In this document: piece after piece, positions 12,494 to 50,497 of the stretch
How the letters are laid out: every line of letters starts with the position of its first letter
Numbering within the stretch: position 1 is the stretch's first letter
Origin: Alistipes sp.
Lineage (GTDB): Bacteria > Bacteroidota > Bacteroidia > Bacteroidales > Rikenellaceae
Length of the DNA stretch: 56,043 nt
Assembly (NCBI GenBank): GCA_017465055.1
Contig: JAFTWZ010000012.1
Coordinates: 1 to 56,043, forward strand
Reading direction: 5' to 3'
Position numbers and translations under genes: made by a program
Notes under the pieces: model-generated
Database searches by the model: none
Told to the model about the DNA's origin: nothing
Seen by the model: only the letters and a program-made list of their open reading frames with translations

Positions 12494-12503
12494 AAATTGG
12501 GGT

Positions 12504-12980: not shown

Positions 12981-12982
12981 CT

Positions 12983-13402: not shown

Positions 13403-13430
13403 AAGGATTGATGTTGTAAATTTTGAGATT

Positions 13431-13805: not shown

Positions 13806-13835
13806 TCGACAACACACCAAACAACGAAATTGATT

Positions 13836-30336: not shown

Positions 30337-30373
30337 GTTAAGGTGCAAAAAACAACGCTTTTTGCACCTTAAC
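30337..30373. terminator. 15-bp stem-loop between convergent operons
   Basis: gttaaggtgcaaaaa (30337-30351) and tttttgcaccttaac (30359-30373) form a perfect 15-bp inverted repeat with a 7-base loop. It lies between the exported-protein gene and the end of the 20-kb operon and may serve both strands, although no separate T-run follows. Confidence 0.6.
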
Positions 30374-30420: not shown

Positions 30421-31074
30421 CTATTGTCGCGTTAGGCTATAAGTATGCACAACGCCCGAGGCCTTAGATACTACGCTCAGATCTGAGATGTTGCTACAGA
30501 GAATCTTGAGACAAGTCTCGTAGCGAAGCAGCTCGAATCGCTCTTTATAAGCTCTAAGCGTCGAAGAGTCGTTGTCCTTGTCGTTTAGAAACGACTCTAT
30601 CTCACGTAGCTCCTCATCGATGTCGGCAAATAACTTGACAATATTATCACCATCGAAGAGCCTTGTGGCAAAGTCTACCTCTCGACTATTGAGCCCCAAG
30701 CAGTATATATCGCAACGTGCCGTGTTACATATGTATGGCTTTATGCGCTCTAAAAACTGCGCCCACTCCTTGTCATCAGCAGCCTCGTGAACCTCAATGC
30801 TCAAGAAGAGTATATCCTTGCCACAGATGCTCTGGTGGATATTGACAACATCGTTGATATCCTCCCACGAAACAACAACGTTGGTATCGGTAGGAAGATC
30901 TATGCGCCTCTCGCCAATAGTTGCGTAAATAAAATCTGACTCGGACTTTAGACCCAAGCCCTGCAATCTCCACGAAACATTGAAATATCGAGTCTGTCCA
31001 GCATCCAGAGTACTGAGATTATCGATATATCTCTCCTTCGTGTGATTATATACTCGAAGTGTGTATCTGCGCAT
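30421..31074 (-). CDS. Unknown protein, tenth gene of the ATPase/SEDS-PBP operon
   Basis: A 217-residue protein with no signal peptide or membrane segment. The N-terminal half looks beta-rich (RYTLRVYNHTKERYI; RRIDLPTDTNVVVSWEDI). The middle alternates strand and helix (DILFLSIEVHE, CDIYCLGLNSREVDF, DNIVKLFADIDEELREIESF), as in Rossmann or vWA-like folds. No metal-binding motif can be named. The ATG at 31074 is 3 bp after the preceding stop. I do not recognise the family. Its position suggests a cytoplasmic accessory of the operon's complex. Confidence 0.75.
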   Translation of the reverse strand: MRRYTLRVYNHTKERYIDNLSTLDAGQTRYFNVSWRLQGLGLKSESDFIYATIGERRIDLPTDTNVVVSWEDINDVVNIHQSICGKDILFLSIEVHEAADDKEWAQFLERIKPYICNTARCDIYCLGLNSREVDFATRLFDGDNIVKLFADIDEELREIESFLNDKDNDSSTLRAYKERFELLRYETCLKILCSNISDLSVVSKASGVVHTYSLTRQ

Positions 31075-31077
31075 ACC

Positions 31078-31521
31078 TTATTTACCTTCAAAACAATTAT
31101 CCTCGGCTAACTTGTAGACCATCCACGTCGGGACAAGCACAAAGTTGCCATCCGTAGGTAGCAACACATAGTTGTCGTCCACCTCGAACTTATGCACCTC
31201 GGAGATATCGGCAAGAATACGCACATCGTCGAGGTCTACGTTAAACTTGTAGGTGTTGACGTCACCCTTAGGTCCAATCTTGATAGACGAAAAGCGGTTG
31301 TTCTCAACCTTAGCCCAATTAGATTTGTTGACAGCCGTCTCGAAGATGTCCTCCTTGAGCCATATGGTCGCCTTATCGAGAGGCATATTCAGGTGTCTGT
31401 TCACCGTGTCAACATCCTGCGTCGTAACCTTCGTTGCTCGAGTGCAGAAGTAGGCACCGATGCCCATCACCAAAAGGATAAAGATGTATGCTCCGATGTG
31501 ATTTGATATTCGTGTTCCCAT
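31078..31521 (-). CDS. Small bitopic membrane protein, ninth gene of the operon
   Basis: A 147-residue protein with one N-terminal membrane segment (about 9-27; IGAYIFILLVMGIGAYF) and a soluble part of about 120 residues that seems mixed alpha/beta (NTYKFNVDLDDVRILADI; NFVLVPTWMVYKL). It is probably anchored in the inner membrane with the domain outside. No family is recognised. It starts 6 bp after the SEDS-PBP gene and ends 3 bp before the last gene, so translation of all three is likely coupled. Confidence 0.78.
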   Translation of the reverse strand: MGTRISNHIGAYIFILLVMGIGAYFCTRATKVTTQDVDTVNRHLNMPLDKATIWLKEDIFETAVNKSNWAKVENNRFSSIKIGPKGDVNTYKFNVDLDDVRILADISEVHKFEVDDNYVLLPTDGNFVLVPTWMVYKLAEDNCFEGK

Positions 31522-31527
31522 AGTATA

Positions 31528-34500
31528 CTATTTATTTGTGTTCATATAATCTAAGAAGGCCTTAGACGTTACTACAGTATCGATAATGCTCTGGTCCAAA
31601 GCTCTCCATCCTCCGTTGCCCGAATGCTCGTAGTCAACCTGGTATATAATGAAGTACTTTACCTCCTGTAGCTCCTCGGCTGAGCACTGCGTAAGCTTCC
31701 TGTCGGTAATGATGGTTACCAATAGGTGGTCCTCTTTGTCTATGCCATTCCAATATCCATTTATAGTACCTGTCTTACCATAGACGTAGAATGTTGGGAC
31801 AGAGCTTGAACTCTCCTCGGCCTTGCCGTCATCAATCTTAATCTTTATATTGCCTTGATTAGTCTTATAATCTTTAGCTGTGCCGAGGCCACTGGCGGTA
31901 CCAGTTCCACTCTGGTATACCAAACTCATACCCTTTATAAGCTCGTTGCGCACGTCGAGATAGTCAGTGATGCCGTCGCTCCACGAGTCGTCTATGTCAA
32001 ACTGCTCATATGGTGGTCTCTTCTTGCTTTTGTCTAAGTTGTACAGTGAGAGCGAGTAGTTCTTATTAAGTGTTATAAGACGTCCGTACATCTCGGCCAT
32101 ATCGTATGGCGAAACGTTCCAAATGGTGTTGCTACCAATGGCTACGGAGCGAACCATATACTCGTTTAGCTGTCGAGGTGTGGTTCTGCCTTCGCGCACG
32201 GCGAGATTGAAGAATGACCTTGGTCTTAGAGAGTCATAGTCCTTGTAGAGCTTCAGTCCGAAGTTTGTCGACAAGCCAGCCGGTAGTAACGCCGTGGTGT
32301 CGCTGGCAGTAGTTATGCCGCGAGCTATGTCCGAAGATAGGAACCTATTGAACGACAAGGTGCTGTTGCCGCCAACCTTACTAATCCTCATTTCGGGGAA
32401 TGAGGCGGTATTGCTGTTATACCACTTCTTCAAACGCTTATTGTAATCGTCTGTACTCTCTCCCTTCTGTCGCTGAGGCTTAGCCTGCTTGTAACCTGGT
32501 ATACTACTATGATTGGGCTTAAAGAACATAGTGTTTCTATCGCGCTCTTTCGATGCGGTCATATAATCTTTCTGTCCCAATGACTCTTTAGTGAAAGCAC
32601 CTATATATGCCATTATAGAGTTGTAGTAGTTACTTGATTTATAGATATAGTTCTTAATATCTATGACGCCATTAACACCCTGCTCATCGCCCTTTAGCGA
32701 CTTGAAGGTTGTTTCTAAGGGCTCTCCAGCATAACTCTTGAAGGTGTAGTGCTTGCCATTGGTGGTCTTAGTCTCTTTATCCATTGATATCTCTCGAGGC
32801 GCAAGCATATTGAGATTTGTCCACCAGCCAGTGTTATACATCGTGGTGACGGCGGTCCACACAATAGGCTTCTGCGTCGAGCCTGGGCCTCGACGAAGAT
32901 TGTTGCGCGAGAAGTTGCCGAAGTAGCGAGTCTCCGTAGCTCGGCCCTTCTCGAAGTTGATATAGAGCGAGTCGGAAATCTTACCAATACGACTATAGTC
33001 GTTAGGGTTGAGGCGATACTCCTTGTTTGAGCGATAATCGACCATCGCCTGAACACGACCATCGCCATCGGCAACAATAACAGCTCTATCGGCTGCGTCG
33101 CTCTTGTTGTCGAGATTACCAAGTTTGTCGCTATACACCTTGTACAACGCCATAGTTAGCTCGCTATCGATGCTGAGTGCTATGTCTGTGTTAGGTAGAC
33201 CCTGACCTTTCTCCTTAATCAGACGCTTGTGTGCGGTCATAATGTCGCCAACAACATCGCGAGACCAGAACATCTTGTGGCCAAATGGATAGAGGAAGGC
33301 TCTATCGCCGTTGATCAAGATATTCTTAGCAAAATAGGTGCTACGCTGGAGTGGGAGGTTGTCTAAGGCACTATTCTGGTCATTGATGACGAAGTCGTTC
33401 TTGCGAACGTTAGCAACATTTAGACCCTGCGGATTTAGCTCGACAATGCCATCGGCTCCGATAACCACTCGACGCCCCGATGTGCCTGCTGCCACAAGCT
33501 GCACGGCCTCGCCATTGGTTAGACGCTTGGGGATGTATACGATACCATCGCTGTATACGCACACACTGTCTCCAGCGTTGCTACTATCGGCCTCGATAAT
33601 GCTACCAGTCCACTGACTACGCCTCTTAGATGGCATATGGTAGTTAATAGCGTTGATGCCTGTGGCAAACTCCAGAGTGTCGTGATAGATGACGTTGTAC
33701 TTATTCGCTCCCTTTACCTTATCGTAGCTAATCGAACGAACATTGCGCAGGCAGATAACATTCTGCAAGCTATTGTTCTTCGAGCCCGACTCCTTGTAGT
33801 GCTCAAGCAGTCGTTGCGTCATAGGATCGCACTTTTCGAGTGCTATTATGACAGAGTCGTACTTATACAACGAGTCGACAAACGACGACATATCTCGTCG
33901 GAGAGGTACTCGGTGCTTAAGTTCTCTCTGATAACTCTTGAGCGCAGGGGTGATGTAGGTGTCAAGATCGTTGGCGACTTTGGCCATAAGGAACTCGATG
34001 TTGTATACGCCTTGATCATAGTAGGCGTAATCCTTAAAGTCGGTCTTGGATAGAACCTCCTCAGGCGATTGTTTCTCTATCGCCTCGCTGTAGGTTATAC
34101 CTTCGGAGTAGTCATTATTGTGTCCTGTGGTATATAGCACGATAGCTGAAATAATAAACAGGGCAACAATGAATAGGCCGCCTATCTCCTGCCTCTGTCT
34201 AATGCTGACATAGAGCATTGAGTTGTCCTCAATCATACGGTTGAACTGATTCTTGCCAAAGAGAGCTGAGATTACTCCAAGCGCAACCAGTATAAAGAAG
34301 TAGAGTGCAGAGACGCGCGAGGTGATAGATATAAGTGGGAAATCCTGGCCAAAGAAGATAAATGACCTGGTATTTGCCAAGAATATCATCAACGATTGCA
34401 CGGCAAAGAGCAGTGCTACCTGTATGACAATGACACGTGACCAGCGATATATAGCCACTGAGTATAGCGCTATCAGAAGGTACACGCTAAAGGATAAAAC

Positions 34501-37500
34501 AAAGAGAATTGCAAGCCACAATCCGTGTTCGGCGATGATGTATCGCGATAGGCAAATGTCTGTAGTCTGCGCAAACCACATAGCGCCGACCTTAGACTGA
34601 GGCTGAAGCTTAAAGTAGCCAGTACCACCCTCGCCAAAGGTTGCAATCTCTTTGCCAATACTCTGGTACTCGTGTAGTATCCAGTCGTTGAGCGATGCCT
34701 GCAGGAATCTATTCTGCTCGCTGTTGTCCTCAACCTTAGCGAGTACCTCGCCAGGAGTCTCCATATGTACGCGAATACGATACTCCGTATGACCACCTGT
34801 AAACTTATCCAGTACGCCCATATGTGTGGCAGCTCCTGCGCCGACGATAACAGCGATAGGTATGGCAAGATGCCACCAGCGGAATCGAATATTGAGCGCA
34901 ACCATCACAGCCGCAACGACAGCAAGGAATATCGCTACAGCCATAAAGACGAAGGAGTACTCATTGCCGTCAGCAATCGCATTGTACAACCCTAAGAAGA
35001 TGTCCTTATAGCCTACGATTACTCCAATAAATACTGCCAATATGATCAGTAGCATAGCTGTAGGTAGCCATTTAAACCTTCTATTGCTGTGAACCTCGTA
35101 GTTGCTTACGTCGATAATCTTTACCCAAGTGGCAAAAATCGCAAAGAGGGTAAACATAATGCCATAGCCACCATCGGCAATCAATGTGGCACCCGACATA
35201 CACAGCATATTCCAAATCGAGAGCGAGAAGGCGGTCTTATCCGAGGTCTCGTTGTCTTCAACCGCGTTGACATAGTCAGCAACGTACGATGCGCTGAATA
35301 TCTTGTATATAAACCAGTCTACGGCAAAGTATATCAGTGCACCTCCGAGAACGCGGAACATTGGGCGCGCTAAGAGCATCTCGATGACAACATATGCTAC
35401 GGCAATCAACGGGATAGCAGCAAAGACTACCCAACGAAGGTTTTCCCTATTGGGGATGATGACTACTACGTAGCGTACAAAGCATAGGATGGCCAATGCG
35501 CACAAAAGGAGCATTGGGTAGATCATAGTCCAAGAGAGGCCCAGAATGATAAGTCCGGCGCTGATAACGCCCGCGACAGTGGTAAAACGTGAAACTGTGG
35601 CTTGAGGCAATAGGTTATATAGACTTGCTACTACGCCCACAAAGCCAATCGCAAGGCCTACCCATAGCAATATCGTCTTAAGTACTCCCATTGAAGGTAG
35701 AGCAAGTGCCGCAGACGATATTATGATTAGAGCTATGCCTAAGCCCATAACACACTTACGCCATAACTCGGGCTGCGATTCTCCAAACTTCTGGAAAATG
35801 CCTGGAACAAGCGAGAAGATACTCTCGTCGCCGAATCGCAAAATATATCGTTTAGCCGCGAATGTAGCTACATAGAAGAATACCAAGCAGTAGACGATGG
35901 TCGACAGCCACGAGGGGTCTCTAAAGTGATTGAACTCGAAGAGGGTGATAGACGACACTGGTGAGAATACCGTGGTTCGCCAAAGTAGGAAGAACTTAAC
36001 GGTCAGATAGGCAATCAACAAAAGGTGCGTCGCACACTCTACGGTTGTATAGAGACCGTGGGTCGAAGAGTAGAGCATAGAAAATGCCGATAATATCACG
36101 ACGCCAAAGAGAATCCATACCAACCTGTCGGCCGTAAATGGCGTAGTCTCCTTGAAATTCTCGATAGATATCAACCACTCATAGTTGCCATCCTGCGATG
36201 TGATGCCCGGAAGGTATGTGCCTGCCGTGATGCCATTCTGCACGCCAGTGCCACCATCGGTAAGGAGGCGGAAGACCATCTCGACGTTGGAGATGTCGCT
36301 GACGTAGCTTACGAAGAATGGCTTGATGTGCATATCGTTGCCGTGGTTCTCAAAGAGGTGGAAGAGAGCCAGATTCTCGGCAATATTGTCGATAAGACCT
36401 GAATCATCGGAGCTCTCCTGGGCGTTGATGATACTCGAGGCAACCATCAGAGATGTCTCACGACCTCGGTTTGTCGAGGAGAGTGCCTGGTAGCGTGGTA
36501 GCTCATACTTTAAAGCTACCTCGAAGTTGCCACTATCGTCGACATTGCACTTCGTGAACTTAACAGACTGCGTGGCATCCTCGCCAAAGCCAACGTAGAA
36601 GGCTTTGTCGTAGGGTATGGTGACCTCTTCGACCTGTTTGAGCATATCGTCAACGCTGTAGTATTGGTCGTTGACACTGATGCTCTTGATGTTGTTCTGC
36701 TTCTCAAGCTCAATGAGATAGTCCTGCTGATGGTATTTACCCTTGATATCCTTCTGCTTTAGGTTGCGGTAGATGACTGGACGGATAAGGTTAACGCCTC
36801 CCAGGTCCATCTGCGTATAGGCATCCAGAGCAATAGATTGCAGTGGGTAGCCACCCTTAATGAATTTGGTAAACGACGAGGCAACTAAATCATCGCCACG
36901 GCCAAAAGAATATATCGTGCTATCCTTGCCGCGCTTCAATTTGCATAAATTCTGATCCTCGTGATTTTGGTCGATGGTAATATCTACACGGTAGTTATTG
37001 TTGTTTGCGTCCTTATTAAGGCCTACAAAGGTAGCTTTATATATGCTATCTTGGCTATCGGTTCGGAAGAGACACTGGGCGTTGATGCACGTATCCTTTA
37101 GTGGATTGCCATCCTTTGTGTACTCCTTAACGTATATAGGCGAGGTTACGCCTCTAAGCTGCAGGGTAACACCATCCTTGCCGAGGTGAGTGACGCGTAT
37201 CGATCCATTGATTGTCGAATTATCGAGGAATGACTGACCATCGTTGCCTGCGACGAAGAAGCCCTCATTAACCTTGATACCCTCGACCTTGATGGCGTGG
37301 TGGTCGTAGTTATAGAAGATCTTCTTATCGGGATTTACGTAGTTGCCAAACGTATATATCGATAGGATTCCGAAGAGTACAATGATGAAGTATGACCAAA
37401 ACAGCGCGCCGTAATTCTGGCGAGGAACTCCATCAACGCGAATAAAGTCCTTTATCTTCTCTCCATCTATATACTGGTCTGTGATCCGATACTCCTTGTT

Positions 37501-37638
37501 GGAAAACATCCAGATCATCAGTGCAAAAAGCACACTGAATAGCGCAACAAAGTTAAATGTGAAATTATGGTCGATATACCAAAATAGAAGGATTGCGCCG
37601 AATAAAATAAGCAATGTCTTAATAATACTCTTTTTCAT
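31528..37638 (-). CDS. SEDS (RodA/FtsW-like)-PBP transpeptidase fusion, 2036 residues
   Basis: Two to three membrane segments at the N-terminus (about 5-100) lead into an exported soluble region (about 105-500) of unknown fold. A membrane domain of about 17 segments follows (503-1170). Its end resembles SEDS glycosyltransferases: a GEGGTG turn, then TTDICLSRYIIAEHGLWLAI with Asp1027 at the RodA/FtsW catalytic position, and FGQDFPLISITSRVSAL. The last part (about 1180-2036) is a PBP transpeptidase with S1587-TQ-K1590, S1668-S-N1670 and K1955-T-G-T. SEDS proteins polymerise lipid II and class B PBPs crosslink it, usually as two proteins. Here both activities would be in one chain. The motif spacing is wider than usual, implying inserts. 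The central gene of the ten-gene operon. Confidence 0.85.
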   Translation of the reverse strand: MKKSIIKTLLILFGAILLFWYIDHNFTFNFVALFSVLFALMIWMFSNKEYRITDQYIDGEKIKDFIRVDGVPRQNYGALFWSYFIIVLFGILSIYTFGNYVNPDKKIFYNYDHHAIKVEGIKVNEGFFVAGNDGQSFLDNSTINGSIRVTHLGKDGVTLQLRGVTSPIYVKEYTKDGNPLKDTCINAQCLFRTDSQDSIYKATFVGLNKDANNNNYRVDITIDQNHEDQNLCKLKRGKDSTIYSFGRGDDLVASSFTKFIKGGYPLQSIALDAYTQMDLGGVNLIRPVIYRNLKQKDIKGKYHQQDYLIELEKQNNIKSISVNDQYYSVDDMLKQVEEVTIPYDKAFYVGFGEDATQSVKFTKCNVDDSGNFEVALKYELPRYQALSSTNRGRETSLMVASSIINAQESSDDSGLIDNIAENLALFHLFENHGNDMHIKPFFVSYVSDISNVEMVFRLLTDGGTGVQNGITAGTYLPGITSQDGNYEWLISIENFKETTPFTADRLVWILFGVVILSAFSMLYSSTHGLYTTVECATHLLLIAYLTVKFFLLWRTTVFSPVSSITLFEFNHFRDPSWLSTIVYCLVFFYVATFAAKRYILRFGDESIFSLVPGIFQKFGESQPELWRKCVMGLGIALIIISSAALALPSMGVLKTILLWVGLAIGFVGVVASLYNLLPQATVSRFTTVAGVISAGLIILGLSWTMIYPMLLLCALAILCFVRYVVVIIPNRENLRWVVFAAIPLIAVAYVVIEMLLARPMFRVLGGALIYFAVDWFIYKIFSASYVADYVNAVEDNETSDKTAFSLSIWNMLCMSGATLIADGGYGIMFTLFAIFATWVKIIDVSNYEVHSNRRFKWLPTAMLLIILAVFIGVIVGYKDIFLGLYNAIADGNEYSFVFMAVAIFLAVVAAVMVALNIRFRWWHLAIPIAVIVGAGAATHMGVLDKFTGGHTEYRIRVHMETPGEVLAKVEDNSEQNRFLQASLNDWILHEYQSIGKEIATFGEGGTGYFKLQPQSKVGAMWFAQTTDICLSRYIIAEHGLWLAILFVLSFSVYLLIALYSVAIYRWSRVIVIQVALLFAVQSLMIFLANTRSFIFFGQDFPLISITSRVSALYFFILVALGVISALFGKNQFNRMIEDNSMLYVSIRQRQEIGGLFIVALFIISAIVLYTTGHNNDYSEGITYSEAIEKQSPEEVLSKTDFKDYAYYDQGVYNIEFLMAKVANDLDTYITPALKSYQRELKHRVPLRRDMSSFVDSLYKYDSVIIALEKCDPMTQRLLEHYKESGSKNNSLQNVICLRNVRSISYDKVKGANKYNVIYHDTLEFATGINAINYHMPSKRRSQWTGSIIEADSSNAGDSVCVYSDGIVYIPKRLTNGEAVQLVAAGTSGRRVVIGADGIVELNPQGLNVANVRKNDFVINDQNSALDNLPLQRSTYFAKNILINGDRAFLYPFGHKMFWSRDVVGDIMTAHKRLIKEKGQGLPNTDIALSIDSELTMALYKVYSDKLGNLDNKSDAADRAVIVADGDGRVQAMVDYRSNKEYRLNPNDYSRIGKISDSLYINFEKGRATETRYFGNFSRNNLRRGPGSTQKPIVWTAVTTMYNTGWWTNLNMLAPREISMDKETKTTNGKHYTFKSYAGEPLETTFKSLKGDEQGVNGVIDIKNYIYKSSNYYNSIMAYIGAFTKESLGQKDYMTASKERDRNTMFFKPNHSSIPGYKQAKPQRQKGESTDDYNKRLKKWYNSNTASFPEMRISKVGGNSTLSFNRFLSSDIARGITTASDTTALLPAGLSTNFGLKLYKDYDSLRPRSFFNLAVREGRTTPRQLNEYMVRSVAIGSNTIWNVSPYDMAEMYGRLITLNKNYSLSLYNLDKSKKRPPYEQFDIDDSWSDGITDYLDVRNELIKGMSLVYQSGTGTASGLGTAKDYKTNQGNIKIKIDDGKAEESSSSVPTFYVYGKTGTINGYWNGIDKEDHLLVTIITDRKLTQCSAEELQEVKYFIIYQVDYEHSGNGGWRALDQSIIDTVVTSKAFLDYMNTNK

Positions 37639-37640
37639 AC

Positions 37641-38375: not shown

Positions 38376-38401
38376 AACGATATATATAAAAAGTTAAACT
38401 A

Positions 38402-41029: not shown

Positions 41030-41063
41030 AAATTATTGAGTGTTATAGTTAATAATCAGGTCA

Positions 41064-43322
41064 TTAATAGGCTACTACGGCTTTAACCTTCTCGCCATTA
41101 GCCATATATCCGACTTGCAGGAAGTCGTAGATGACCATATTGCCAGTATGCTCGGCATAATCGGGGAAGATGCTTGGCAGTACAAGGGTTGAAATGCTGT
41201 AGTTATGCTCGTTCTCGTTGTACTTAGTGGACAACAACTTAGGGATATATATGTTGGTTATACCCCACATTGCGAGCAGAATCTCGATCTGCTCGAATAG
41301 ATGTTTAGTATCCTTAGCTGCATCCTTGTAGTGGCCAAACACCGGCTTAAACTCCTTGGTCGAAGCATAGGCCGTAAGTCGTGCAGCGTTGTTTATCCAC
41401 GACATATGGGCTCTCATATTCGTCATCACGAAGGCGCGTACGTCGGCAATAAGCTCCTCGATGGCTCTATCTTCACACTTTAAGGTGTCGTTGATTTGAT
41501 CCTTGAACTGCTCGTAGCCATACTGCGAGCTTCGCAGCTGTTTAAGTATCTCGGATATTGGAGAGCTTGGGTCTGACTTGTCGAGGATGTTGGCAATATC
41601 TTCATCGATAAACTTAAACTGTGAGCTAAAGAATGCCAGTATCTGCTCTCTGTCGCGTCGCCAGTTATCAGTCACCGCGTTGTATTGCTCCTCCAATTCC
41701 TTATATTTTTCTTTCTCAGCGTCAATGGCCTCTTTGTGCTGCTCATTAAGACCCGCAATCTCGCTCTCCTTAGCATCGATTGCTTCCTGGTGCTCTCTGT
41801 TCAGACGCTCTATCTCCGCATTGTGAGCCTCGTCCTTCTCCTTGACTGCTTTCTCAACCTTCTCGTTGATCTCGCGCTTCAATGTTTCGAGGGCATTTCG
41901 CGCCGCCTGTAAATCGCGCTGACTTTCTTCAAGCTCGCGACTCTTGGTAGATAGCGTTTCATCAAGACTACTTATCTTGCTATTTAGCTCGCCTATCTTG
42001 CTATCTTTCGCTACGATGGTGTCATTTAGCTCCTCGACTCTCTGTCGACTCGCTTCTAAATTCGACTTGACTTGCTCCAACTCCTGGAGTTTCGCCTCGG
42101 CCTCGGCTAATTTACATTGTAGCTCCTCGAGATCATCACTCTTTGTCGCAGAATCACCGCTAGTGCTCTCCTTGTTCTCTTCGCGCCCCTGATTCTCCTT
42201 ATCGTCATCATTATCGTGATGCTTTTTCTTCTTCTTTTTCTCCTTTTTTTCTCCTCTCTTCTCTTCGCGCTCCTCCTTCTCCTCTCTCTCTCTTTGCTCT
42301 TCGCGCTCCTCTCTCTCCTTCTTGCTCTTGACTCTCTTACGCCAAATTAGCGCGCCAATCGTTGCCAAGATAGCAAAAAGAACAAACGCTGCAACAAGGT
42401 AGTGCCACCAGAGTAGCACGGGCGCTGGCGCTGGCTCGGTATATGTAAACTTGTAGGTTAATGTAATACTCTGATTGAGAACACCATTCTCATCAAAGGC
42501 TACATAGGTGAGCGTGAGAGGATTACCAGCCAAGAGAGAGTCTATATCAGAGGGCTCTAAGCCTTGTTGCTTGCTTCTCTCCTTCTCGAAATCGTTGGCA
42601 AAAGTCTCGGTAGGTATATATGATTGGCGCACGCTATCACCCACTCTAACCTCCCTAAGGATTGTATTTGCCGGAATCTTGATGTCGAGAGTATCGATTG
42701 CGCTCTTGTCTGATAATGTGATAACCTCGATGCCATCATCGCCTCTTTTGCGCGTAGCAAGGCCATCACGAACTGATAGTATGGTGCTATCCATCAGACT
42801 CTCAGCTACTTGAAACTCCGATGCGCGACATATGGTGAGACGCATTATAGGCACTGTTGTGGCAGACTTTTTAACAAAGTAAAACTCACATTTAGTCTGA
42901 CCATCTGCAAGGCCAATAGATCTACCCTCATATTCGATAATAGTTCTTGTATCATCGTTATCGGCTAATGGTTTTTTATTTTGGTCATAGTATGTATACC
43001 ATTGATTTTTATCCTTATTTTTTATAGAAGGATAAATATTTTGAGAGAGCTTCCCCTTCTCTGTACCAAAGTTAAACTTGGTATACCTCTTAGAGGTGTA
43101 GAGGCAGTAGTGGAAAATAGTATCCGCCTCGCTAAGCTTAAGTAGAGTGCCGCGAGAATTGGACATTGTTACGGTGTCAATAGCCAATGAACTCTCATTG
43201 GCGATAAGCAGAATCTCATCGTCGGAAAGCTCTGTGGTGGGCCTATGGGCAGTCACGGTAAACGCTACAAGGGTGAATGCCACGGCAAGCGTAAGTTGCT
43301 GAATTATATTAGTAAGTCTCAT
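41064..43322 (-). CDS. Bitopic protein with exported domain and long cytoplasmic coiled coil
   Basis: A 752-residue protein. A signal-like N-terminus (1-25) and an exported beta-rich region (26-300) precede one membrane segment (303-327; WWHYLVAAFVLFAILATIGAL). A very charged Lys/Arg/Glu stretch (330-370), a coiled coil (about 396-560, heptads such as LEELQCKLAEAEAKLQELE) and a globular helical C-terminal domain (565-752) follow. The coding strand is purine-rich over the charged stretch. It would connect the outside of the inner membrane to cytoplasmic partners, as MreC/RodZ-type scaffolds do. This is analogy from layout only; no family is recognised. Confidence 0.82.
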   Translation of the reverse strand: MRLTNIIQQLTLAVAFTLVAFTVTAHRPTTELSDDEILLIANESSLAIDTVTMSNSRGTLLKLSEADTIFHYCLYTSKRYTKFNFGTEKGKLSQNIYPSIKNKDKNQWYTYYDQNKKPLADNDDTRTIIEYEGRSIGLADGQTKCEFYFVKKSATTVPIMRLTICRASEFQVAESLMDSTILSVRDGLATRKRGDDGIEVITLSDKSAIDTLDIKIPANTILREVRVGDSVRQSYIPTETFANDFEKERSKQQGLEPSDIDSLLAGNPLTLTYVAFDENGVLNQSITLTYKFTYTEPAPAPVLLWWHYLVAAFVLFAILATIGALIWRKRVKSKKEREEREEQREREEKEEREEKRGEKKEKKKKKKHHDNDDDKENQGREENKESTSGDSATKSDDLEELQCKLAEAEAKLQELEQVKSNLEASRQRVEELNDTIVAKDSKIGELNSKISSLDETLSTKSRELEESQRDLQAARNALETLKREINEKVEKAVKEKDEAHNAEIERLNREHQEAIDAKESEIAGLNEQHKEAIDAEKEKYKELEEQYNAVTDNWRRDREQILAFFSSQFKFIDEDIANILDKSDPSSPISEILKQLRSSQYGYEQFKDQINDTLKCEDRAIEELIADVRAFVMTNMRAHMSWINNAARLTAYASTKEFKPVFGHYKDAAKDTKHLFEQIEILLAMWGITNIYIPKLLSTKYNENEHNYSISTLVLPSIFPDYAEHTGNMVIYDFLQVGYMANGEKVKAVVAY

Positions 43323-43328
43323 ATGTAT

Positions 43329-46300
43329 TTAGTTTTGGTTTTCAACAATAGGCCACATACTCTTCTTGAAAGAGTCTGATATGGTATCTTCGCGAGGACA
43401 CATCTCGATCTGGGCGTTTCCTATGTGGAACGATATCCTATTCAATCGATCAACAGTCATATAGTACTCCCTATTACCGATATTGGTGAAGTTGCTCGTA
43501 GCACCAATAATAGTGATAAGGTCGCGACGACCCTCCTGCCAGTCACCCTTCGTATTATTGCTATACGACTGTAGTACATAGATAGAGGCTACGTCGTTGA
43601 AGTTGCGCATCAGAGGTCTGAGTGGAATGTTGCCGAGCTGCGCGCTATTTGAGGCGCGGTGTTTTCGGGTGTCGTACTCATAGATGATAGTGCCATCGCT
43701 GGATAACTTTGCGCTATCCTCGTTGGTCGCACGCGTCGTAGAGTCGATCATAGGAACCCACTCCCAAGTGCCATCGTTGAGCATAAACATAACACCATAC
43801 TGGGCGTAGATGTTTCGGTTGCGAATCTTTAGGCTGCCGTTACCCTCACCAAAGAGGCTGCAAAAAGCCATAGCGCCATCGACAACAACAGTCTTAAGGT
43901 TGCTGATGTTATCCAAGATCGTTACACCCTCGGTTTCGGCATACTGACACTCCTCGGTGAGATTCAAGATGCGCTCACCCATAAGGTCGAGGAACATACA
44001 ATCGTTGCATCCAAATACCTGAGCAAGGGCATTATTTACCGCCTTGCGGATAACGTTCAGCGAGGTAGAACGACCCGAGAAGATAAGCAGCGAAGGCTTA
44101 ATGCTCTCCTCGTCGTTAGAGAAGAGATTATTGAAGTGCGAGAATATCTCGGTAGATATCTCCCTGAGATACTGCCTCATCTTAGCGTGTGACAAGACCT
44201 TTGAAACTATAATTTTCGAGAGCTTATCCTTATACTTTGTAAATGCAGGGTCCTCTATAAGGGCCTGAGTCTCGGGGATATGTATATCGCATATAGCTCT
44301 TTGCCCCTGGGCATTAAGCAATGGTTTAACAACGTTGCGAACAAACGACTTGAGCAATCCTGCACTCTTGCGATGCGCAGGCGTAAGACCGTTGTTGTTG
44401 AGCGATATGACCATATCCAGAGCCTGCTCGTCCTGGAGGCGGCGTGCCTTATCGGCATCGCTCTCGCCCTCGGGAGCATTATCCTTAAGTAGGTCGATGA
44501 TAATCTCGGCAAGGAGATAATCGAGGTAGTTACCTGCTCGCGAAACACCCATCTTACCCTTGAACTCAATCTCGGTATTTGTGCCATTGATAGTGCGGGT
44601 AATATAGGTTAGGTCGAGTGTGCCTGCGCCCATATCGTATACCAGCACCTTGCTGTCGATATCGTGAGACAGATTTGGCGTTCTGAGGAAGATATGCTGG
44701 CGGCGCGATAGGTAGTAGAAAACCACTGCATCCGACTCGCTGATGAAGCGGATGTTACGCAACTGCGGCATAGCGCCACATAGTATGCTGCGCAGCGTGG
44801 CGATGTTGTGGGGTGTGTACGTATTAGGCACTGTCATAACCACATTCTCGGCATCCTTAGAGTACTGCTCGGGGATGAAGAAGCGGAATAGCTGCTTATA
44901 TACGGTCTGGAATATAGACTCAACCTTGACAGGATTATCTGCACTCATAGTCACTCCGTAGGGGAGTAGCGCCGTGGGGAACTTATTGTGGCCCACGATG
45001 CTCTTCAAGCTCGGCAACATACGAGCATAGAAGTCGACCATACCAGTGGTAGGCGAGAGCCACAGAGCCATCCTGAGGTAGTCACCATCGACGCTCGACA
45101 ATATCCTCGAGTCGTCGATAGAGGTGAGGTTTACTGCAGTGGTAGAGTTGATGAAGCGGGCATCACTCTCGGAGGTGTCACCACACTTGTTCCTATCACC
45201 ATTATGTATGCTCGACATCATAGCCTGCTTCTGCGTGCCCAGCGGAATCTGGTTGTGGGCGAAGTTTCCCGCTTGGTTGAGCAGCGTGCCATATGACGCC
45301 ACGATGGCCGACGTACCTAAGTCGATACACATCCACTCGGGCTTTGCCGCCTTACGCAGTAGGATAGGTAGTGTGGCTGTGAACTCGGTAAACTTCGACT
45401 CGGCAATCTCCGAGGCCTTGTTGTACTCATCGTTGCTGTCGACGTAGTACTTGAAGCTAAGGTGTAGCCTGCGGTTAAGCTCGTAGATGGTCCTCTGCGT
45501 ATCAGGGTCGATGATGGAGTCTATGCACGAGTGGTCATACTCGATGCGTATCTTGTGAGACTCCTTGATGCCAAGCGAAAGGGCCTCGGCAAGCGATACT
45601 CTCCTGCCATTGTTATCGATGAAGGTGAGTACCGACTCCCTAACACCAGCCCTCTCCGTGATGCACTCTGTCAAGTCTATGGGAAGCTTGAGGTCTTTGA
45701 TAAAGATGCGAGCGTGCTCCTTGCCTACCTCGGCAAACTCGGCAGAGTTGCGAAGGATAAACTCATATATCGAGGTCATACCTGGAATGATATCTGGAAT
45801 AACCCCCTGTAGCACAGCGCCATTGGTGACCAATGTCTCGTTGCCATCGACGAAGTGCACCTCGAGGTTCATATCCTTGCGATTGCGCTTGAGCGTAACG
45901 TGCAGATTGGTATAGGCGGTCTCGATACGCTTGTTGTCGATGGCATTTGTGGCCGTAGCCTCAATATGGATAGAGTACCTCTCGTCATTATCGATGGGGT
46001 TACGTACCTTAGTCATATCCCACACGATGGGTATCGAGACAACATTATCGTTGGTGTGTGTGCCGTTTGAGGTGTTGACGTCGATATTGTACAACTCGAC
46101 AAAATCCTTATCCTTGAGGATAAAGCGGAAATCCGATGGGTCGCCCGACATAGGGGTCAGTGTAGTGACGTCGGCAGCAGTACGTGGGTGCGACTGCTTG
46201 ATGTCGACGTCGAACCACATAAGATCCTTGACCTCGACCATTCGTAGACCATCAGTGCGCTTGGCAGTCACGCGCATAGTGATGTTGCAAGCTGGCGAGC

Positions 46301-46886
46301 GTAGCAGGTCCGAGGCATTCCTGACCTTCAAGGTGCCGATAACGCAGGGCTGGTCGGTATGTATACTGTAGACAAGGTTGTTGCCAGCCTCGTTGGGGAC
46401 AAACTCCACAACGGGGGTCGTGAAATTGAGCCCCTGAAGGCTAATATTGGCCTCACCCTCGATGGTGGCGGCTATCTCGTTGCTACTGTCGTTTACAGCC
46501 TTCACCGTATAGCTAATCGTGAAGGTATCTGCCTCAGCGCTCTCTTTTCTCTTGCAATCGATAATTGTCGTAGGGTCGAAGTAGAGCTGAAAATCGAGCA
46601 CTCGAGCAGCATCCTTGCCAATAGGCACAACTATTGAGGCACCTTGCTGCTCGCGGTGCTTTACGTATAGTGGCGAGCTACCCACGGCCGTGATAAGGCT
46701 GTCGTCGACCTTGCACTCTACCTCGAGGCGATAGTTGACAGGTCTTGAGGATCTGTCTAAGCCGAGGAAGAACAATCTTCGGGGTAAATCCACGTGGCAA
46801 TCTTGCACTACCTGTGCAGCCTGCTTCTTATTCTGCAGGTCTACGGTGAGCACGCGCGTTTTGTTATTAGTAGTTGTTGTACTCAT
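43329..46886 (-). CDS. Divergent Hsp70/actin-fold ATPase with long N-terminal extension, 1185 residues
   Basis: Residues 1-510 are beta-rich and look like several Ig-like or beta-sandwich modules (NYRLEVECKVDDSLI; SIHIEATATNAI; NLHVTLKRN). The ATPase core follows: phosphate-1 CIDLGTSAIVASYG (520-533), VVMTVPNTYTPHN, ISESDAVVFYY, phosphate-2 YDMGAGTLDLT (750-760), and adenosine motif LLIFSGRSTSLNVI (933-946). A C-terminal part of about 200 residues ends the protein. No signal peptide is present. It shares VPNTY and ISESDA with the 875-residue ATPase. The extension may bind client proteins or mediate assembly, which is inference. It is 4 bp after the 426-residue gene and 6 bp before the coiled-coil gene. 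Confidence 0.87.
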   Translation of the reverse strand: MSTTTTNNKTRVLTVDLQNKKQAAQVVQDCHVDLPRRLFFLGLDRSSRPVNYRLEVECKVDDSLITAVGSSPLYVKHREQQGASIVVPIGKDAARVLDFQLYFDPTTIIDCKRKESAEADTFTISYTVKAVNDSSNEIAATIEGEANISLQGLNFTTPVVEFVPNEAGNNLVYSIHTDQPCVIGTLKVRNASDLLRSPACNITMRVTAKRTDGLRMVEVKDLMWFDVDIKQSHPRTAADVTTLTPMSGDPSDFRFILKDKDFVELYNIDVNTSNGTHTNDNVVSIPIVWDMTKVRNPIDNDERYSIHIEATATNAIDNKRIETAYTNLHVTLKRNRKDMNLEVHFVDGNETLVTNGAVLQGVIPDIIPGMTSIYEFILRNSAEFAEVGKEHARIFIKDLKLPIDLTECITERAGVRESVLTFIDNNGRRVSLAEALSLGIKESHKIRIEYDHSCIDSIIDPDTQRTIYELNRRLHLSFKYYVDSNDEYNKASEIAESKFTEFTATLPILLRKAAKPEWMCIDLGTSAIVASYGTLLNQAGNFAHNQIPLGTQKQAMMSSIHNGDRNKCGDTSESDARFINSTTAVNLTSIDDSRILSSVDGDYLRMALWLSPTTGMVDFYARMLPSLKSIVGHNKFPTALLPYGVTMSADNPVKVESIFQTVYKQLFRFFIPEQYSKDAENVVMTVPNTYTPHNIATLRSILCGAMPQLRNIRFISESDAVVFYYLSRRQHIFLRTPNLSHDIDSKVLVYDMGAGTLDLTYITRTINGTNTEIEFKGKMGVSRAGNYLDYLLAEIIIDLLKDNAPEGESDADKARRLQDEQALDMVISLNNNGLTPAHRKSAGLLKSFVRNVVKPLLNAQGQRAICDIHIPETQALIEDPAFTKYKDKLSKIIVSKVLSHAKMRQYLREISTEIFSHFNNLFSNDEESIKPSLLIFSGRSTSLNVIRKAVNNALAQVFGCNDCMFLDLMGERILNLTEECQYAETEGVTILDNISNLKTVVVDGAMAFCSLFGEGNGSLKIRNRNIYAQYGVMFMLNDGTWEWVPMIDSTTRATNEDSAKLSSDGTIIYEYDTRKHRASNSAQLGNIPLRPLMRNFNDVASIYVLQSYSNNTKGDWQEGRRDLITIIGATSNFTNIGNREYYMTVDRLNRISFHIGNAQIEMCPREDTISDSFKKSMWPIVENQN

Positions 46887-46890
46887 ATGA

Positions 46891-48171
46891 TTATTTCGTT
46901 TGATTATCCGAATTGTAAAAACCTATGCTTATATCCGCGTCGGTAGGGGTATATCTGCGGCGGCAAAGTATGTATACTATAAAGGCTATAATGGCGAGTA
47001 TTGTCATTATGATATCGACCCACGTAGCGACCTCATACTGATTGTCGCACCAGGGCAGCCATATGGTGTCGGGCAGCCTGAACGAGCCAAAGAGGATGGT
47101 GGCATCGGGCTCTAACACGATGTCGATATCGTGCTCTAACCTTAGGCGTGTTGCGCCATAGACCTCCTCGTTAATATGGACGATACTCTCGATGTGTAGC
47201 TTGGTGTAGGGGTTGGCGATATTGAATTGGCCAGCGATGGTGTCCGACTCTCCCTGACCGAGGCTATTACGCTCGTAGATAGGCTCTTTATCACTCTCGG
47301 TACAGCCATATGCGTCGAGGTGAAGTATGCTAAAGGTCTCGTTATACGACCTAACATCAACGTTGAAGGTGTAGTCGCCACCAGCCTGGCGCTTGGCCTC
47401 GATTACCGGCTGGGTAGCAATCACCGATGGAAGGTTGATAGATTGATGATTGGGAACTAACTCGAAAACATCGTAACATTCAAATGGCCATTTATTGGGG
47501 ACATTTGTAGTATCTTTAGGAATAGGAATAAATTTAATATTGTATTCTTGAGCAACATCGGAGCATACTCCTACTATTTCTTCAAGTTTTTCAAAGAAAT
47601 CGTTATACTTTTGATTTTTGACAAAGTTGTTTAAATAGGATAATGACTCTCCGTAGTAGTCGTTATTACCGTAAACATTGTCTGTGACGTAGAGAATAAA
47701 CGTCTGGTCAACATACTTATCTGTCTCTCCGGGAGAAAGTTTCAAGGAATCAATAGTATAGTATTTGCTAATAGATAGTAGAGAGTATGGATCCTCCTCC
47801 GCCTTGCCCGTAAACCAATCACACTTAACATAATTCTTCCAATTATCGCTTAATGTGCCTTTTGTATCCGCTCCAACCTTTTGCCATCTTAAGCGTGTCT
47901 TGACTATTGGGTCTTCGTAATTCGCAGCATTGCCAGCAGCACATACTACCGATAGCATATCGCCATCTTTGAGTCTAATCAAACTATCTTTTTCAAAGAG
48001 TTTTTCTATAACTATTTCCTCGACGTCTTCATCACCTAATTTGATACTTGAGTGGGTTTTACCATCAAAAGCCACGATGACGTGTTTGCGCATCGGTACT
48101 GAGTCGACAATACCCCACGCAGTAGAATAACAAGCTATGAGTAGACACAAAAGTGTAGCAATTCGCTTCAT
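46891..48171 (-). CDS. Exported single-TM protein, possibly vWA-like, third gene of the operon
   Basis: A 426-residue protein with a signal peptide (IATLLCLLIACYSTAWG), an exported region of about 360 residues, a C-terminal membrane segment (about 383-402; WVDIIMTILAIIAFIVYIL) and a short cytoplasmic tail with an RRR stop-transfer. The first exported strand (KHVIVAFDGKTHSS) and FILYVTDNVYG later recall strands 1 and 4 of von Willebrand A domains, but the DxSxS metal site is not present. The second half is beta-rich. I call it vWA-like only tentatively. It starts 15 bp after the first ATPase gene. Confidence 0.75.
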   Translation of the reverse strand: MKRIATLLCLLIACYSTAWGIVDSVPMRKHVIVAFDGKTHSSIKLGDEDVEEIVIEKLFEKDSLIRLKDGDMLSVVCAAGNAANYEDPIVKTRLRWQKVGADTKGTLSDNWKNYVKCDWFTGKAEEDPYSLLSISKYYTIDSLKLSPGETDKYVDQTFILYVTDNVYGNNDYYGESLSYLNNFVKNQKYNDFFEKLEEIVGVCSDVAQEYNIKFIPIPKDTTNVPNKWPFECYDVFELVPNHQSINLPSVIATQPVIEAKRQAGGDYTFNVDVRSYNETFSILHLDAYGCTESDKEPIYERNSLGQGESDTIAGQFNIANPYTKLHIESIVHINEEVYGATRLRLEHDIDIVLEPDATILFGSFRLPDTIWLPWCDNQYEVATWVDIIMTILAIIAFIVYILCRRRYTPTDADISIGFYNSDNQTK

Positions 48172-48186
48172 ATGATAATCGTTTAT

Positions 48187-49686
48187 TTAAATGTTACAAT
48201 CAAACCTCTTAATATAATCCTCGCCATTAGCTCCGCATCCCTCGGCGCAGAAGGTCACGCTACGTAGGCGGCCCTGGTGTATCGCAAGGGTTACCTTTAC
48301 AACGATATCTTTAAGTTGGCGGCCGTGGGTATATAGCGTGTCGTCGACCGTAATGTCGCACAGCACCTCGCAATCGTCGTCAACATTTATAGAGCGTCCG
48401 CCCTGATAAAATCTAACACCACCAATCTTAAAAGTGCCACTCCCCTCATCTAAGTAGGTTGGTTCGCACTTGCACTCGTGTGTATAGTCGCCATCGATGA
48501 AGCACTCGCCAACACACTCGTGGAGCTTATTGCTGCCAAAGAGCAACGATATGCGATGCATAGTTCTATTCTTGATAACAACGTTGCCATCGATAAGCTG
48601 GCCCTTGTAAGCAGCATATATCGCAGCACCACGAACAACACTATCGTAGCGATCTATGTTGTCATCCTCGGTACGCAGTGCTACCTCCCTGTCGCGGTAC
48701 TCGAAAAATACCTCCTTGAGAGCATCGCGCACTAATACCAGGCGTGATGTCCCACCTATGGGCAGAAGGTAGACATCGGACGACGAAGAGGTGGAGAAAT
48801 TATCCTTTAGGCGCGATACTAAGGTCTTGTACTTCGATAGAAAGTTATCATTCTGTGATAGCACCGTGCCAAGCTCGTCGATGGACATCTCGAGGATGAC
48901 CGGGTTGCCATTAACCATAAGGAACTCCCCCGAGTCGTCCAATACAGCTTGCTGAGAGTGGCTTTGGCCCTTATATCTTGAGAACCCCCTCTTGAGCTCG
49001 CAACAGGCACGAACAAGGGTGTCGCGGTCGATGTTTTGGAGCTCAGGGCGTTTTGCTATGAGATAGTCGGCGATATTGTTGTCTATATCGTTGCCGCCCA
49101 ACTCGAACATATGCTCGGTATTAAGCACCTCGAACTCAAACTGACCCTTGTACGATGTTGCCCTGACATTGGCAAGATCGGTAGTACCTCCACCAACGTC
49201 CGAAACAACAATATGCTGCTCATTGTGCAAGCAACCGATTCTATTCATTGCATATGCAAAGTATAGCGCTGCGGCGATGGGCTCGGGGATAATAGATACC
49301 TCAATCGACGAATCGATGCCTTTGGCCTTGAGGATGCCACGGATGTTGCTCTCAACGATGCTCTTGAGTATTCTGCATTCGCGGTCCTTGAAAGCATTGG
49401 GCACCGTAATGGCCATACTTACCTGCTTGTAGTCGCTTTCGTGACCCTCGATATGTGTCGTTAATAGCATATTTACACATAACTCGATGCAGCGACATAT
49501 CTTGTTGATATCCTCTTGCGAGATTGCATCGATGTTGTGCAACATTCGCTTAGGCGAGAGTATATATTCACAGTTGTAAGTGACGGCAGATTTTAGGTGT
49601 GTAATAGGAATATCCCCCTCGATTTTGGGAACGAAGGTAGCTACTAAGCTGTTGGTGCTGCCATAATCAATGCCTATCGCAATCAT
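48187..49686 (-). CDS. Hsp70 (DnaK-like) ATPase, 499 residues
   Basis: The most canonical of the three ATPases. Phosphate-1 GIDYGSTNS is at 5-13, the EPIAAA segment at 135-140, phosphate-2 DVGGGTTD at 163-170, and the adenosine motif LLPIGGTSRLVL at 307-318, followed by VVRGAAIYAAY as in DnaK. After about residue 365 a beta-rich region takes the place of the substrate-binding domain, and there is no long helical lid, so it is shorter than DnaK (about 640). I choose the ATG at 49686, whose ATGA overlaps the stop of the preceding gene. A TTG at 49713 would only add a tail before the conserved first strand. It is probably an active ATPase in the cytoplasm. Confidence 0.9.
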   Translation of the reverse strand: MIAIGIDYGSTNSLVATFVPKIEGDIPITHLKSAVTYNCEYILSPKRMLHNIDAISQEDINKICRCIELCVNMLLTTHIEGHESDYKQVSMAITVPNAFKDRECRILKSIVESNIRGILKAKGIDSSIEVSIIPEPIAAALYFAYAMNRIGCLHNEQHIVVSDVGGGTTDLANVRATSYKGQFEFEVLNTEHMFELGGNDIDNNIADYLIAKRPELQNIDRDTLVRACCELKRGFSRYKGQSHSQQAVLDDSGEFLMVNGNPVILEMSIDELGTVLSQNDNFLSKYKTLVSRLKDNFSTSSSSDVYLLPIGGTSRLVLVRDALKEVFFEYRDREVALRTEDDNIDRYDSVVRGAAIYAAYKGQLIDGNVVIKNRTMHRISLLFGSNKLHECVGECFIDGDYTHECKCEPTYLDEGSGTFKIGGVRFYQGGRSINVDDDCEVLCDITVDDTLYTHGRQLKDIVVKVTLAIHQGRLRSVTFCAEGCGANGEDYIKRFDCNI

Positions 49687-50300
49687 AGTAACCTCAATAT
49701 TAATTTTGCACAATAACTATATGTGTACTTAGCTTGATAATTCGTGTGCTCGGGAAGGTGGTGACGCAACTCCCTGCAAGCATCATCCCACCAGTCGGCC
49801 GTAGTTCTGATGGTTGCAACCTCTGTTCGCTCGGCGTTATCATCTGCATTATTACGGTAGTCGTATGTGGCAAAAATGGGGAGAATTATAGTGTCGGGTT
49901 GCGACAACAAGGTCATATACATATCGGCGATAACACGCTCAAAGCGGTTCTGCTGCATCGGTAGTAGACGCATATAGCCACATATTGAAGCGACCTCAGA
50001 TGCTCGTCTCACGGTGCTGCTAACCAGGGGAGCGATGCAGCTGCGTTTGTTGAGGGTGACAATGCCCTCCTCGGTGCGAACATATATGCTGTGGCGCGTC
50101 TCTATGGCCTCGCCTAAGGCCAATAGCCGCGTGGCAGAGCTTAGGTCATAGAGCTTGACATCGGGTATGTTGTGGTATTTTTTTACAGCCTCGATATCGA
50201 TATCTTGGTTGTATACATATGCTGAAACTCTATTACTATCAGAGAGATAGAGCGTAAAAGAGTCGTCGTCGCAAAATATTATCGAGCTACAGTCCTTCAT
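49683..50300 (-). CDS. Unknown protein, first gene of the ATPase/SEDS-PBP operon
   Basis: A 205-residue protein without signal peptide or membrane segment. The N-terminus reads as beta strands (IIFCDDDSFTLYLSDSN; VSAYVYNQDI), the rest as helices with conserved-looking aromatic residues near the end (WWDDACRELRHHL; YSYCAKLILRLL). I do not recognise it. The ATG at 50300 is preferred over a TTG one codon earlier. It overlaps the Hsp70 start by 4 bp (ATGA), so the two are translated together and may interact. Confidence 0.78.
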   Translation of the reverse strand: MKDCSSIIFCDDDSFTLYLSDSNRVSAYVYNQDIDIEAVKKYHNIPDVKLYDLSSATRLLALGEAIETRHSIYVRTEEGIVTLNKRSCIAPLVSSTVRRASEVASICGYMRLLPMQQNRFERVIADMYMTLLSQPDTIILPIFATYDYRNNADDNAERTEVATIRTTADWWDDACRELRHHLPEHTNYQAKYTYSYCAKLILRLL

Positions 50301-50466
50301 CAATCTATATTGTTGTCAGCCCCACGATAGCCGAGGGCTTATTTAGTAGTAGTTAAAAAGCCTCTTCGCAATGAGTGCGTCGATATACTTAGCGTGGCAG
50401 AGTGAATATGTGCCGTACGTTATTGCGTAATGTATAGTCGGGCGCTATGCGAAAAATAGAATAAAG

Positions 50467-50497
50467 CAAAGGTAGTAAATTATTGGTGAATAACAAA
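50467..50497 (-). promoter_or_regulatory. Promoter of the ten-gene operon
   Basis: On the minus strand TTTG (50494-50497), 19 bases, then TACCTTTG (50467-50474) matches both boxes of the Bacteroidota consensus with ideal spacing. The first ATG is at 50300, so the leader is about 160 bases. No leader peptide or obvious riboswitch is seen in it. The rest of the gap up to 50717 is AT-rich and holds only a weak TACCTTTA at 50635-50642 facing the methyltransferase-like gene. Confidence 0.85.

Follow-up and report, generated by a model that had tools for sequence, protein, structure and literature searches.

A giant SEDS-related synthase linked to an actin/Hsp70-type ATPase in an operon of Alistipes and distant relatives

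We describe an operon of ten genes (g1 to g10 in the order of transcription) on contig JAFTWZ010000012.1 of an Alistipes sp. (assembly GCA_017465055.1), a stretch of 56,043 nucleotides that was analysed as a whole and is called the window hereafter. The conserved unit is g6–g8, often with g9, rather than the ten genes: g6 encodes an actin/Hsp70-type ATPase, g7 a membrane protein with a coil-like tail, and g8 a giant protein, here termed the synthase, in which a membrane domain remotely similar to SEDS polymerases precedes a transpeptidase part. Because ATPase and synthase are linked in every genome where this can be tested and occupy the same 20 of 195 genomes of one family, the best reading of these data is a single machine in which a wall synthase is combined with a cytoplasmic ATPase. 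The recurrence of this core as a unit in remote relatives speaks for a so far undescribed cell-wall machine in addition to the standard ones. The locus probably represents an accessory, self-contained peptidoglycan-synthase machine, in which g8 is the synthase, g6 an ATPase acting via g7, and g2–g5 an add-on of Alistipes.

Linkage and distribution of the core

Upstream of the synthase and on its strand, a g6-type ATPase was found in 23/23 neighbourhoods (truncated by a contig end in genome G1104), and G1284 displays the same order, giving 24/24 testable genomes; the contigs of G1300 and G1303 break off at the synthase. The possibility, left open by a preliminary description of this DNA, that such genes never occur together in other genomes is thereby rejected. 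The recurring gene set that it had envisaged is found as the g6–g8 core across families, but g1–g5 and g10 have until now turned up together in just two Alistipes. Between ATPase and synthase, 19 of the 23 neighbourhoods contain one gene with an internal transmembrane segment (TM; protein clusters C6, C8, C42, and C88), and in 8 of these 19 proteins an N-terminal signal-like helix exceeded the threshold. Elsewhere, the intervening gene is of the two-TM g7 type (both Alistipes) or present as two pieces plus a masked run (G276), and in G1002 none was resolved by the picking of open reading frames (ORFs). A small TM gene occupies the place of g9 in 15/23 neighbourhoods, and one of 160–164 aa is present in G1300 and G1303. 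Furthermore, the synthase itself is split into two adjacent genes in G1127 (590+1187 aa) and G1052 (595+1188 aa).

In family f122, the ATPase profile (alignment A6, 22 rows, leaving out the contig-cut ATPase of G1104) retrieved the same 20/195 genomes as the synthase, and among the other 175 only one weak partial match in G1014 (57 positions, 8.2e-5); as the profile was in part built from these genomes, the news lies in its absence elsewhere. Pairwise distances of ATPase and synthase over 22 genomes correlated with an r of 0.98, which was reached in 0/2000 permutations, a value that shared ancestry alone also raises.

A g8-type synthase was found in 26 genomes belonging to one class and to no fewer than four families (f1, f78, f122, and f184), namely that of the window, the Alistipes metagenome-assembled genome (MAG) RGIG3988, G276, 20 genomes of f122 and three of f184. 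A family-level sample yielded no other relative in 199 genomes; the nine weak matches (9 genomes of the genus) were ordinary SEDS ORFs of 421–447 aa. At the order level the search found G276 among 392 others, a match in G334 being an RND-type pump by its look and a 188-aa frame in G477 not being counted as a relative, and the phylum-level profile search found G605 among 394 others, with G455 (a 418-aa SEDS ORF) and G859 (RND-like by its look) rejected. Within f122, the family of G605, the synthase occurs in 20/195 genomes and 10/101 genera, in the family of G276 in 1/2 genomes, and among 154 genomes of the order of G605 in three more, all of one further family. A pattern-based contig scan returned three contigs, of which two carry identical 26-kb stretches of RGIG3988 (roe deer caecum) and the third, from Bacteroidales bacterium GMC9, contains the same genes as G276. 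Several very deep branches in the g8 tree suggest that the family may be old; the tree-building program issued a warning that long branches join.

Three observations on these loci stand apart. Two contigs of one Alistipes MAG (L027 and L028) share an identical 26,075-bp stretch with the operon, either a duplication or an assembly artefact. In G1055, a gene of Glycosyl hydrolase family 3 (L073:4021-5271, E 1.8e-42) precedes the ATPase by 3 bp and is possibly a wall-recycling enzyme of the operon. Finally, bitopic proteins of cluster C0 (e.g. L038:6532-8572) occur near the core in 17/20 f122 genomes; composed of a short N-terminal part, a TM, and a long C-terminal part, they resemble RodZ in layout only, and the members scanned had no Pfam match.

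The synthase, the ATPases and the second module

By hydropathy, g8 comprises three TMs, a loop of ~400 aa, three further TMs, a TM bundle (629–1127), a TM at 1152–1170, and ~870 residues thereafter. In an alignment of 23 g8 proteins (A5; the three f184 proteins and, for the two split proteins, their N-terminal halves left out), SxxK, SxN, and KTGT follow in order and are invariant in 23/23, as are Q1024, D1027, R1032, and E1037. Aligned by hhalign with SEDS proteins, g8 scored E 3e-5 at a probability of 73, with D1027 placed on the Asp of RodA (TD). In Escherichia coli RodA, D262 in periplasmic loop 4 was reported to be catalytic and P257, five residues before it, to be needed (PMC10449877); likewise, D297 of FtsW is essential, and mutants indicated that the glycines of SxGGxS in ECL5 are needed (PMC8765783). 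Compared with nine targets, the membrane-part profile (L082 and L084 left out) matched SEDS at 7.4e-5 and the other eight at 0.55 or worse, and for the C-terminal part a two-row alignment of class B penicillin-binding proteins (bPBPs) came first (4.3e-5). GT51, the class-A domain, was absent from the 12 Pfam families matched by the 23 g8 members.

Several results weigh against a SEDS-bPBP assignment. SxGGxS occurs in 0/23 whole g8 proteins versus 8/8 canonical SEDS proteins (set A7, 8 of 12 genes at hand), and a Pro five residues before the Asp in 3/23, that of the window not among them; the canonical FtsW of the genus has that Pro at another place. The window's g8 had no Pfam match at E up to 1, a limit at which the SEDS model PF01098 matched 0/23 members and the Transpeptidase model PF00905 8/23 (best 1.5e-6, again without the window's g8). 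Against single PBPs, the C-terminal part scored 0.0028 for a class-A-like protein, 0.0042 for FtsI, and 0.023 for PBP2, such single-sequence profile scores not separating class A from class B. An AlphaFold2 model of the membrane part (3 sequences) reached a pLDDT of 38, and a Foldseek search with this poor model gave 5 matches (best E 5) without RodA or FtsW. Among PDB sequences, g8 had one irrelevant match, and the A5 profile five, including the KTGT stretch of PBP1B at E 0.32. As Pfam match and SxGGxS are missing and the structure prediction was uninformative, we use the label "SEDS-related" for what appears to be a remote similarity, not clear membership. Thus, of the SEDS-PBP fusion initially proposed, the transpeptidase triad and a SEDS-like stretch around D1027 were found, but the relation to SEDS is only remote and lacks a Pfam match.

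The three ATPases recognised in the preliminary description were borne out, g2 by Pfam, g4 and g6 by their similarity to each other and to g2. HSP70 (PF00012) matched g2 at E 2.1e-18 (66.3 bits, cut-off 20.6), covering residues 129–358 only; neither g4 nor g6 had a family above the Pfam cut-off. They are related to each other (phmmer 3.6e-7; profile versus profile 5.5e-14) and by profiles to g2 (g6 2.3e-6, g4 2.7e-8). The g6 of the window has the motifs DYGSEASQ, ISESDASF, DAGKGTLD, and GRGF, and D180, G182-S183, D425, G427–T430, and D432 are invariant in 22 rows; we take these blocks to be the phosphate-1 and phosphate-2 motifs of the actin/Hsp70 superfamily. Among 22 g6 members, Pfam HSP70 matched none at E up to 1, and DDR, MreB, Actin, and FtsA models matched weakly. 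For MreB (PF06723) this concerned 4/22 members (best 0.032), the host MreB-like protein itself scoring 0.0088 over 19 columns. Judged from sequence, g6 is an ATPase distinct from MreB and forms a family of its own. Its AlphaFold2 model was weak (mean pLDDT 38; residues 451–630 at 51–80). Foldseek nevertheless returned matches down to E 2.7e-8, with TM-scores by query length of only 0.16–0.23; the best 50 of 303 matches (E up to 0.001) belonged to the Hsp70 family (with RAC), ParM, or MreB/Mbl, and DnaK ranked first for this low-confidence model. The A6 profile had three PDB matches, all unrelated. SrfB-type proteins were considered as candidates, and no Pfam match of that type was obtained for operon proteins or g6 members.

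Regarding the second module (g2–g5), g4-type ATPases were found in three other genomes of the order (G209, G419, and G517), which had no g8 match in the same order-level sample. Their proteins open with a signal-like helix, after which come ~375–425 residues and a TM, an arrangement that matches a g3 fused to a g4. Next to each gene, another encodes a protein with two such helices (truncated at a contig end in G517). As the two parts are fused in all three genomes, g3 and g4 may function jointly as a split transmembrane ATPase. The G419 locus (L025:7588-19065) places the g4-type ATPase, with its exported and TM part, in a row with genes for an exported protein, a protein that looks vWA-like, a Tubulin_2 member (E 6e-49), and a trypsin-like protein, a cluster of actin-fold and tubulin-fold proteins. 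In G209 (L024:2487-18097), a 2217-aa protein combines the exported part, TM, and g4-type ATPase; it is followed by a protein with a signal-like helix and TM and then a 6-TM protein, and a ParA-like gene (by look) lies upstream.

Operon layout and host cell-wall genes

The operon (Table 1) was initially described as ten tightly packed minus-strand genes under a single promoter, and both points are confirmed. Ten ORFs run from 50300 to 30421, with starts corrected to 50300 for g1 and 49686 for g2, a g1/g2 overlap of ATGA (49686–49683), and further gaps of 15, 4, 6, 34, 26, 2, 6, and 3 bp. The promoter was called by what we take to be the Bacteroides consensus, and TTTG-N17..23-TAnnTTTG has 3 matches in the whole window on both strands, one of them being this promoter. 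TMs were called by hydropathy, coils visually and from weak hits to coiled-coil families. This gives a bitopic layout for g3, g5, and g9 and a pair of N-terminal TMs for g7; g1 and g10 are unassigned.

Table 1. Features of the operon in the window
Feature	Position	Strand	Description
Promoter	50467..50497	-	Bacteroides type, TTTG-N19-TACCTTTG, upstream of g1
g1	49683..50300	-	205 aa; no family found; 55% identity in RGIG3988
g2	48187..49686	-	499 aa; Hsp70-type ATPase (Pfam PF00012); 69% identity in RGIG3988
g3	46891..48171	-	426 aa; exported domain between a signal-like N-terminal helix and a C-terminal TM 385–403 (hydropathy)
g4	43329..46886	-	1185 aa; TM-free ATPase of the actin/Hsp70 type with a long N-terminal part; 71% identity in RGIG3988
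g5	41064..43322	-	752 aa; signal-like helix, exported part, TM 309–327, coil-like tail
g6	38402..41029	-	875 aa; core actin/Hsp70-type ATPase; 22-row alignment
g7	37641..38375	-	244 aa; N-terminal pair of TMs followed by a coil-like part; relatives have a one-TM protein here
g8	31528..37638	-	2036 aa; putative SEDS-related polymerase fused to transpeptidase
g8, residues 600–1130	34249..35841	-	SEDS-related membrane domain; invariant D1027, codon 34558–34560
g8, residues 1180–2036	31531..34101	-	transpeptidase part; S1587xxK1590, S1668xN1670, K1955TGT1958
g9	31078..31521	-	147 aa; N-terminal TM and ~120-aa exported part
g10	30421..31074	-	217 aa; without TM; seen only in two Alistipes
Inverted repeat	30337..30373	-	long, possible terminator 3' of g10, read from sequence

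In Alistipes sp. RGIG3988 all ten genes are open and in the same order, with 44–71% identity (tblastn). Differences are most numerous at third positions in each of the ten genes, and dN/dS is ~0.13 in three, dS being saturated in the other seven. This shared order and third-position-dominated divergence argue that the ten-gene set is more than chance. The GC content is 47.0% for the operon, 52.5% for the left flank, and 46.5% for the right flank. The left flanking gene was found in 2/60 other genomes of the genus, with different neighbours, and an empty insertion site was not demonstrable. Elsewhere in the window (12053–14912), four tandem small lipoprotein-like genes are followed by a radical-SAM-like gene, all recognised by eye.

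In the host genome (2.1 Mb, 84% complete, 4.5% contaminated; the window lying on its contig C3), two genes exceed the Pfam cut-off for SEDS and three that for transpeptidases. RodA and PBP2 are encoded on C36 beside genes that by their look are MreB-, MreC-, and MreD-like, and FtsW and FtsI on C5 beside mur-type genes; the third transpeptidase (815 aa, C32) appears class-A-like by size. Since the host also has these separate RodA/PBP2 and FtsW/FtsI pairs, the operon is a machine additional to them, in agreement with the independence initially claimed for it.

Proposed mechanism and comparison with known systems

Following from these observations, we infer a physical complex under ATP control, together with its substrate and product and a role for the second module, which might work as follows. 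The SEDS-related membrane domain of g8 would polymerise the lipid-linked wall precursor, and the fused transpeptidase would cross-link the resulting strand. By hydrolysing ATP, g6 could act as a switch or as a filament, thus switching or positioning g8 through g7, as MreB does through MreC/RodZ, with g9 as a putative periplasmic accessory. In Alistipes, the second module (Hsp70 g2, g3 with g4, and g5) may sense an outside signal via g3/g5 and gate the core. In its widest form, which we put forward tentatively, this would be a third ancient wall machine of the Bacteroidota, parallel to elongasome and divisome, with a fused, divergent SEDS-bPBP synthase that a new family of actin/Hsp70-type ATPases drives via a membrane adaptor, and in Alistipes with a transmembrane ATPase receptor (g3 and g4) and an Hsp70 that let an outside signal switch local synthesis. 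To our knowledge, only few actin-fold proteins direct wall synthesis. An ATPase dedicated to, and co-occurring with, a fused synthase of its own would offer a minimal, separable system in which to study the ATPase control of SEDS-bPBP enzymes and, if our reading is true, an extra wall-building, perhaps beta-lactam-binding, activity has mostly been missed by Pfam-based annotation.

The divergence of g8 invites another explanation, namely that its membrane part is a different GT-C enzyme (O-antigen-ligase/polymerase-like) in a machine that makes some other surface polymer or attaches it to peptidoglycan, with the PBP domain anchoring or transferring it. The loss of SxGGxS from all 23 proteins, the altered loop before the Asp, and the ~400-aa extra exported stretch and additional TMs at the N-terminus would fit such an enzyme, and WaaL has been described as mechanistically analogous to RodA (PMC10449877). 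However, the search with g8 matched ordinary SEDS ORFs in nine genomes of the genus, the hhalign comparison, made with SEDS proteins, sets Asp on Asp, and the domain is fused to a transpeptidase with an intact triad, so that we consider this explanation unlikely. Taking the lost SEDS motifs one step further, g8 could be a sensor that consists of degenerate wall enzymes and has no catalytic activity; with both catalytic sets invariant over very long branches in the 23 proteins, the chance of this seems slim indeed.

The ATPases, in turn, might be Hsp70-like chaperones serving the folding, assembly or quality control of the giant synthase instead of being its cytoskeletal or switching partner, as the Pfam assignment of g2 and the first rank of DnaK for the weak g6 model would suggest. 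Yet, no J-domain, DnaJ or GrpE family matched among the ten proteins, g6 itself resembles DDR, MreB, Actin, and FtsA weakly but not Pfam HSP70, and ParM and MreB are also among its listed Foldseek matches; a chaperone role is therefore rather improbable. The stress or conflict setting that had also been proposed found little support. An NTP-dependent conflict or defence system with the PBP fusion as envelope effector would account for the patchy distribution of the g8 family, which likewise counts against a wall machine, as does the PADLOC candidate match of g4 (PDC-M61B, 8.3e-6, a 58-residue stretch only). Moreover, g5 and g7 weakly match JetC, ZorA, LmuB, and RTasRmuC, which looks like coil similarity, a g4-type ATPase lies near a tubulin-like gene in G419, and conflict systems described in the literature include Hsp70, vWA, and tubulin genes (PMC7159879). 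Nevertheless, no toxin, nuclease, MoxR or GTPase family was found in the ten proteins, the core is kept in deep lineages with invariant catalytic residues, and no relative of the synthase appeared in viral contigs (pattern-based), in phages searched with the N-terminal half of g8, or in plasmids searched with the G605 synthase (with g4, plasmids gave one match, a Rhodococcus Hsp70-family protein). A conflict role is thus very improbable, and we return to the accessory wall-synthase machine for the comparison below.

The elongasome (MreB, MreCD, RodZ, RodA-PBP2) is alike in that a cytoplasmic actin-fold ATPase (a predicted fold in the case of g6), membrane adaptors, and a SEDS-type polymerase (SEDS-related in g8) with a transpeptidase are combined. 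In contrast, the ATPase of the operon is not MreB, whose like is encoded elsewhere in the host, the synthase is one giant polypeptide with an extra N-terminal exported stretch and diverged SEDS motifs, and no MreC, MreD or RodZ family matched among the ten proteins. Thus, the operon may work like an elongasome, yet is not one by membership. Similarly, the divisome links the actin-fold FtsA to the SEDS-bPBP pair FtsW-FtsI, but no FtsZ, FtsQLB or FtsN family exceeded the cut-off in the cluster (g7 having a sub-cut-off coil match to FtsL), and ftsW and ftsI of the host lie at their mur-type locus. Conflict systems centred on HSP70/tubulin GTPases or on MoxR-vWA (PMC7159879) share an Hsp70-family protein and a patchy multi-gene cluster, whereas their core GTPase, MoxR, vWA, and effector parts were not found in the ten operon proteins; "FtsW" and "transpeptidase" have 0 occurrences in the main text of that paper.

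The operon had not been recognised as a described system at the outset, and this still holds: searches of the openly licensed literature on SEDS proteins with Hsp70/actin-like partners, SEDS-PBP fusions, and Hsp70 conflict systems yielded no description of it and no characterised system that matches. Natural fusions that join SEDS and bPBP in a single ORF do exist, for which the genome paper of Rhodococcus sp. RHA1 is cited (PMC10449877); the passages of that source on such fusions mention no ATPase partner, and g8 is set beside them by description only. Hence, a SEDS-PBP fusion alone is already known, and what appears to be new is the ATPase-linked operon.

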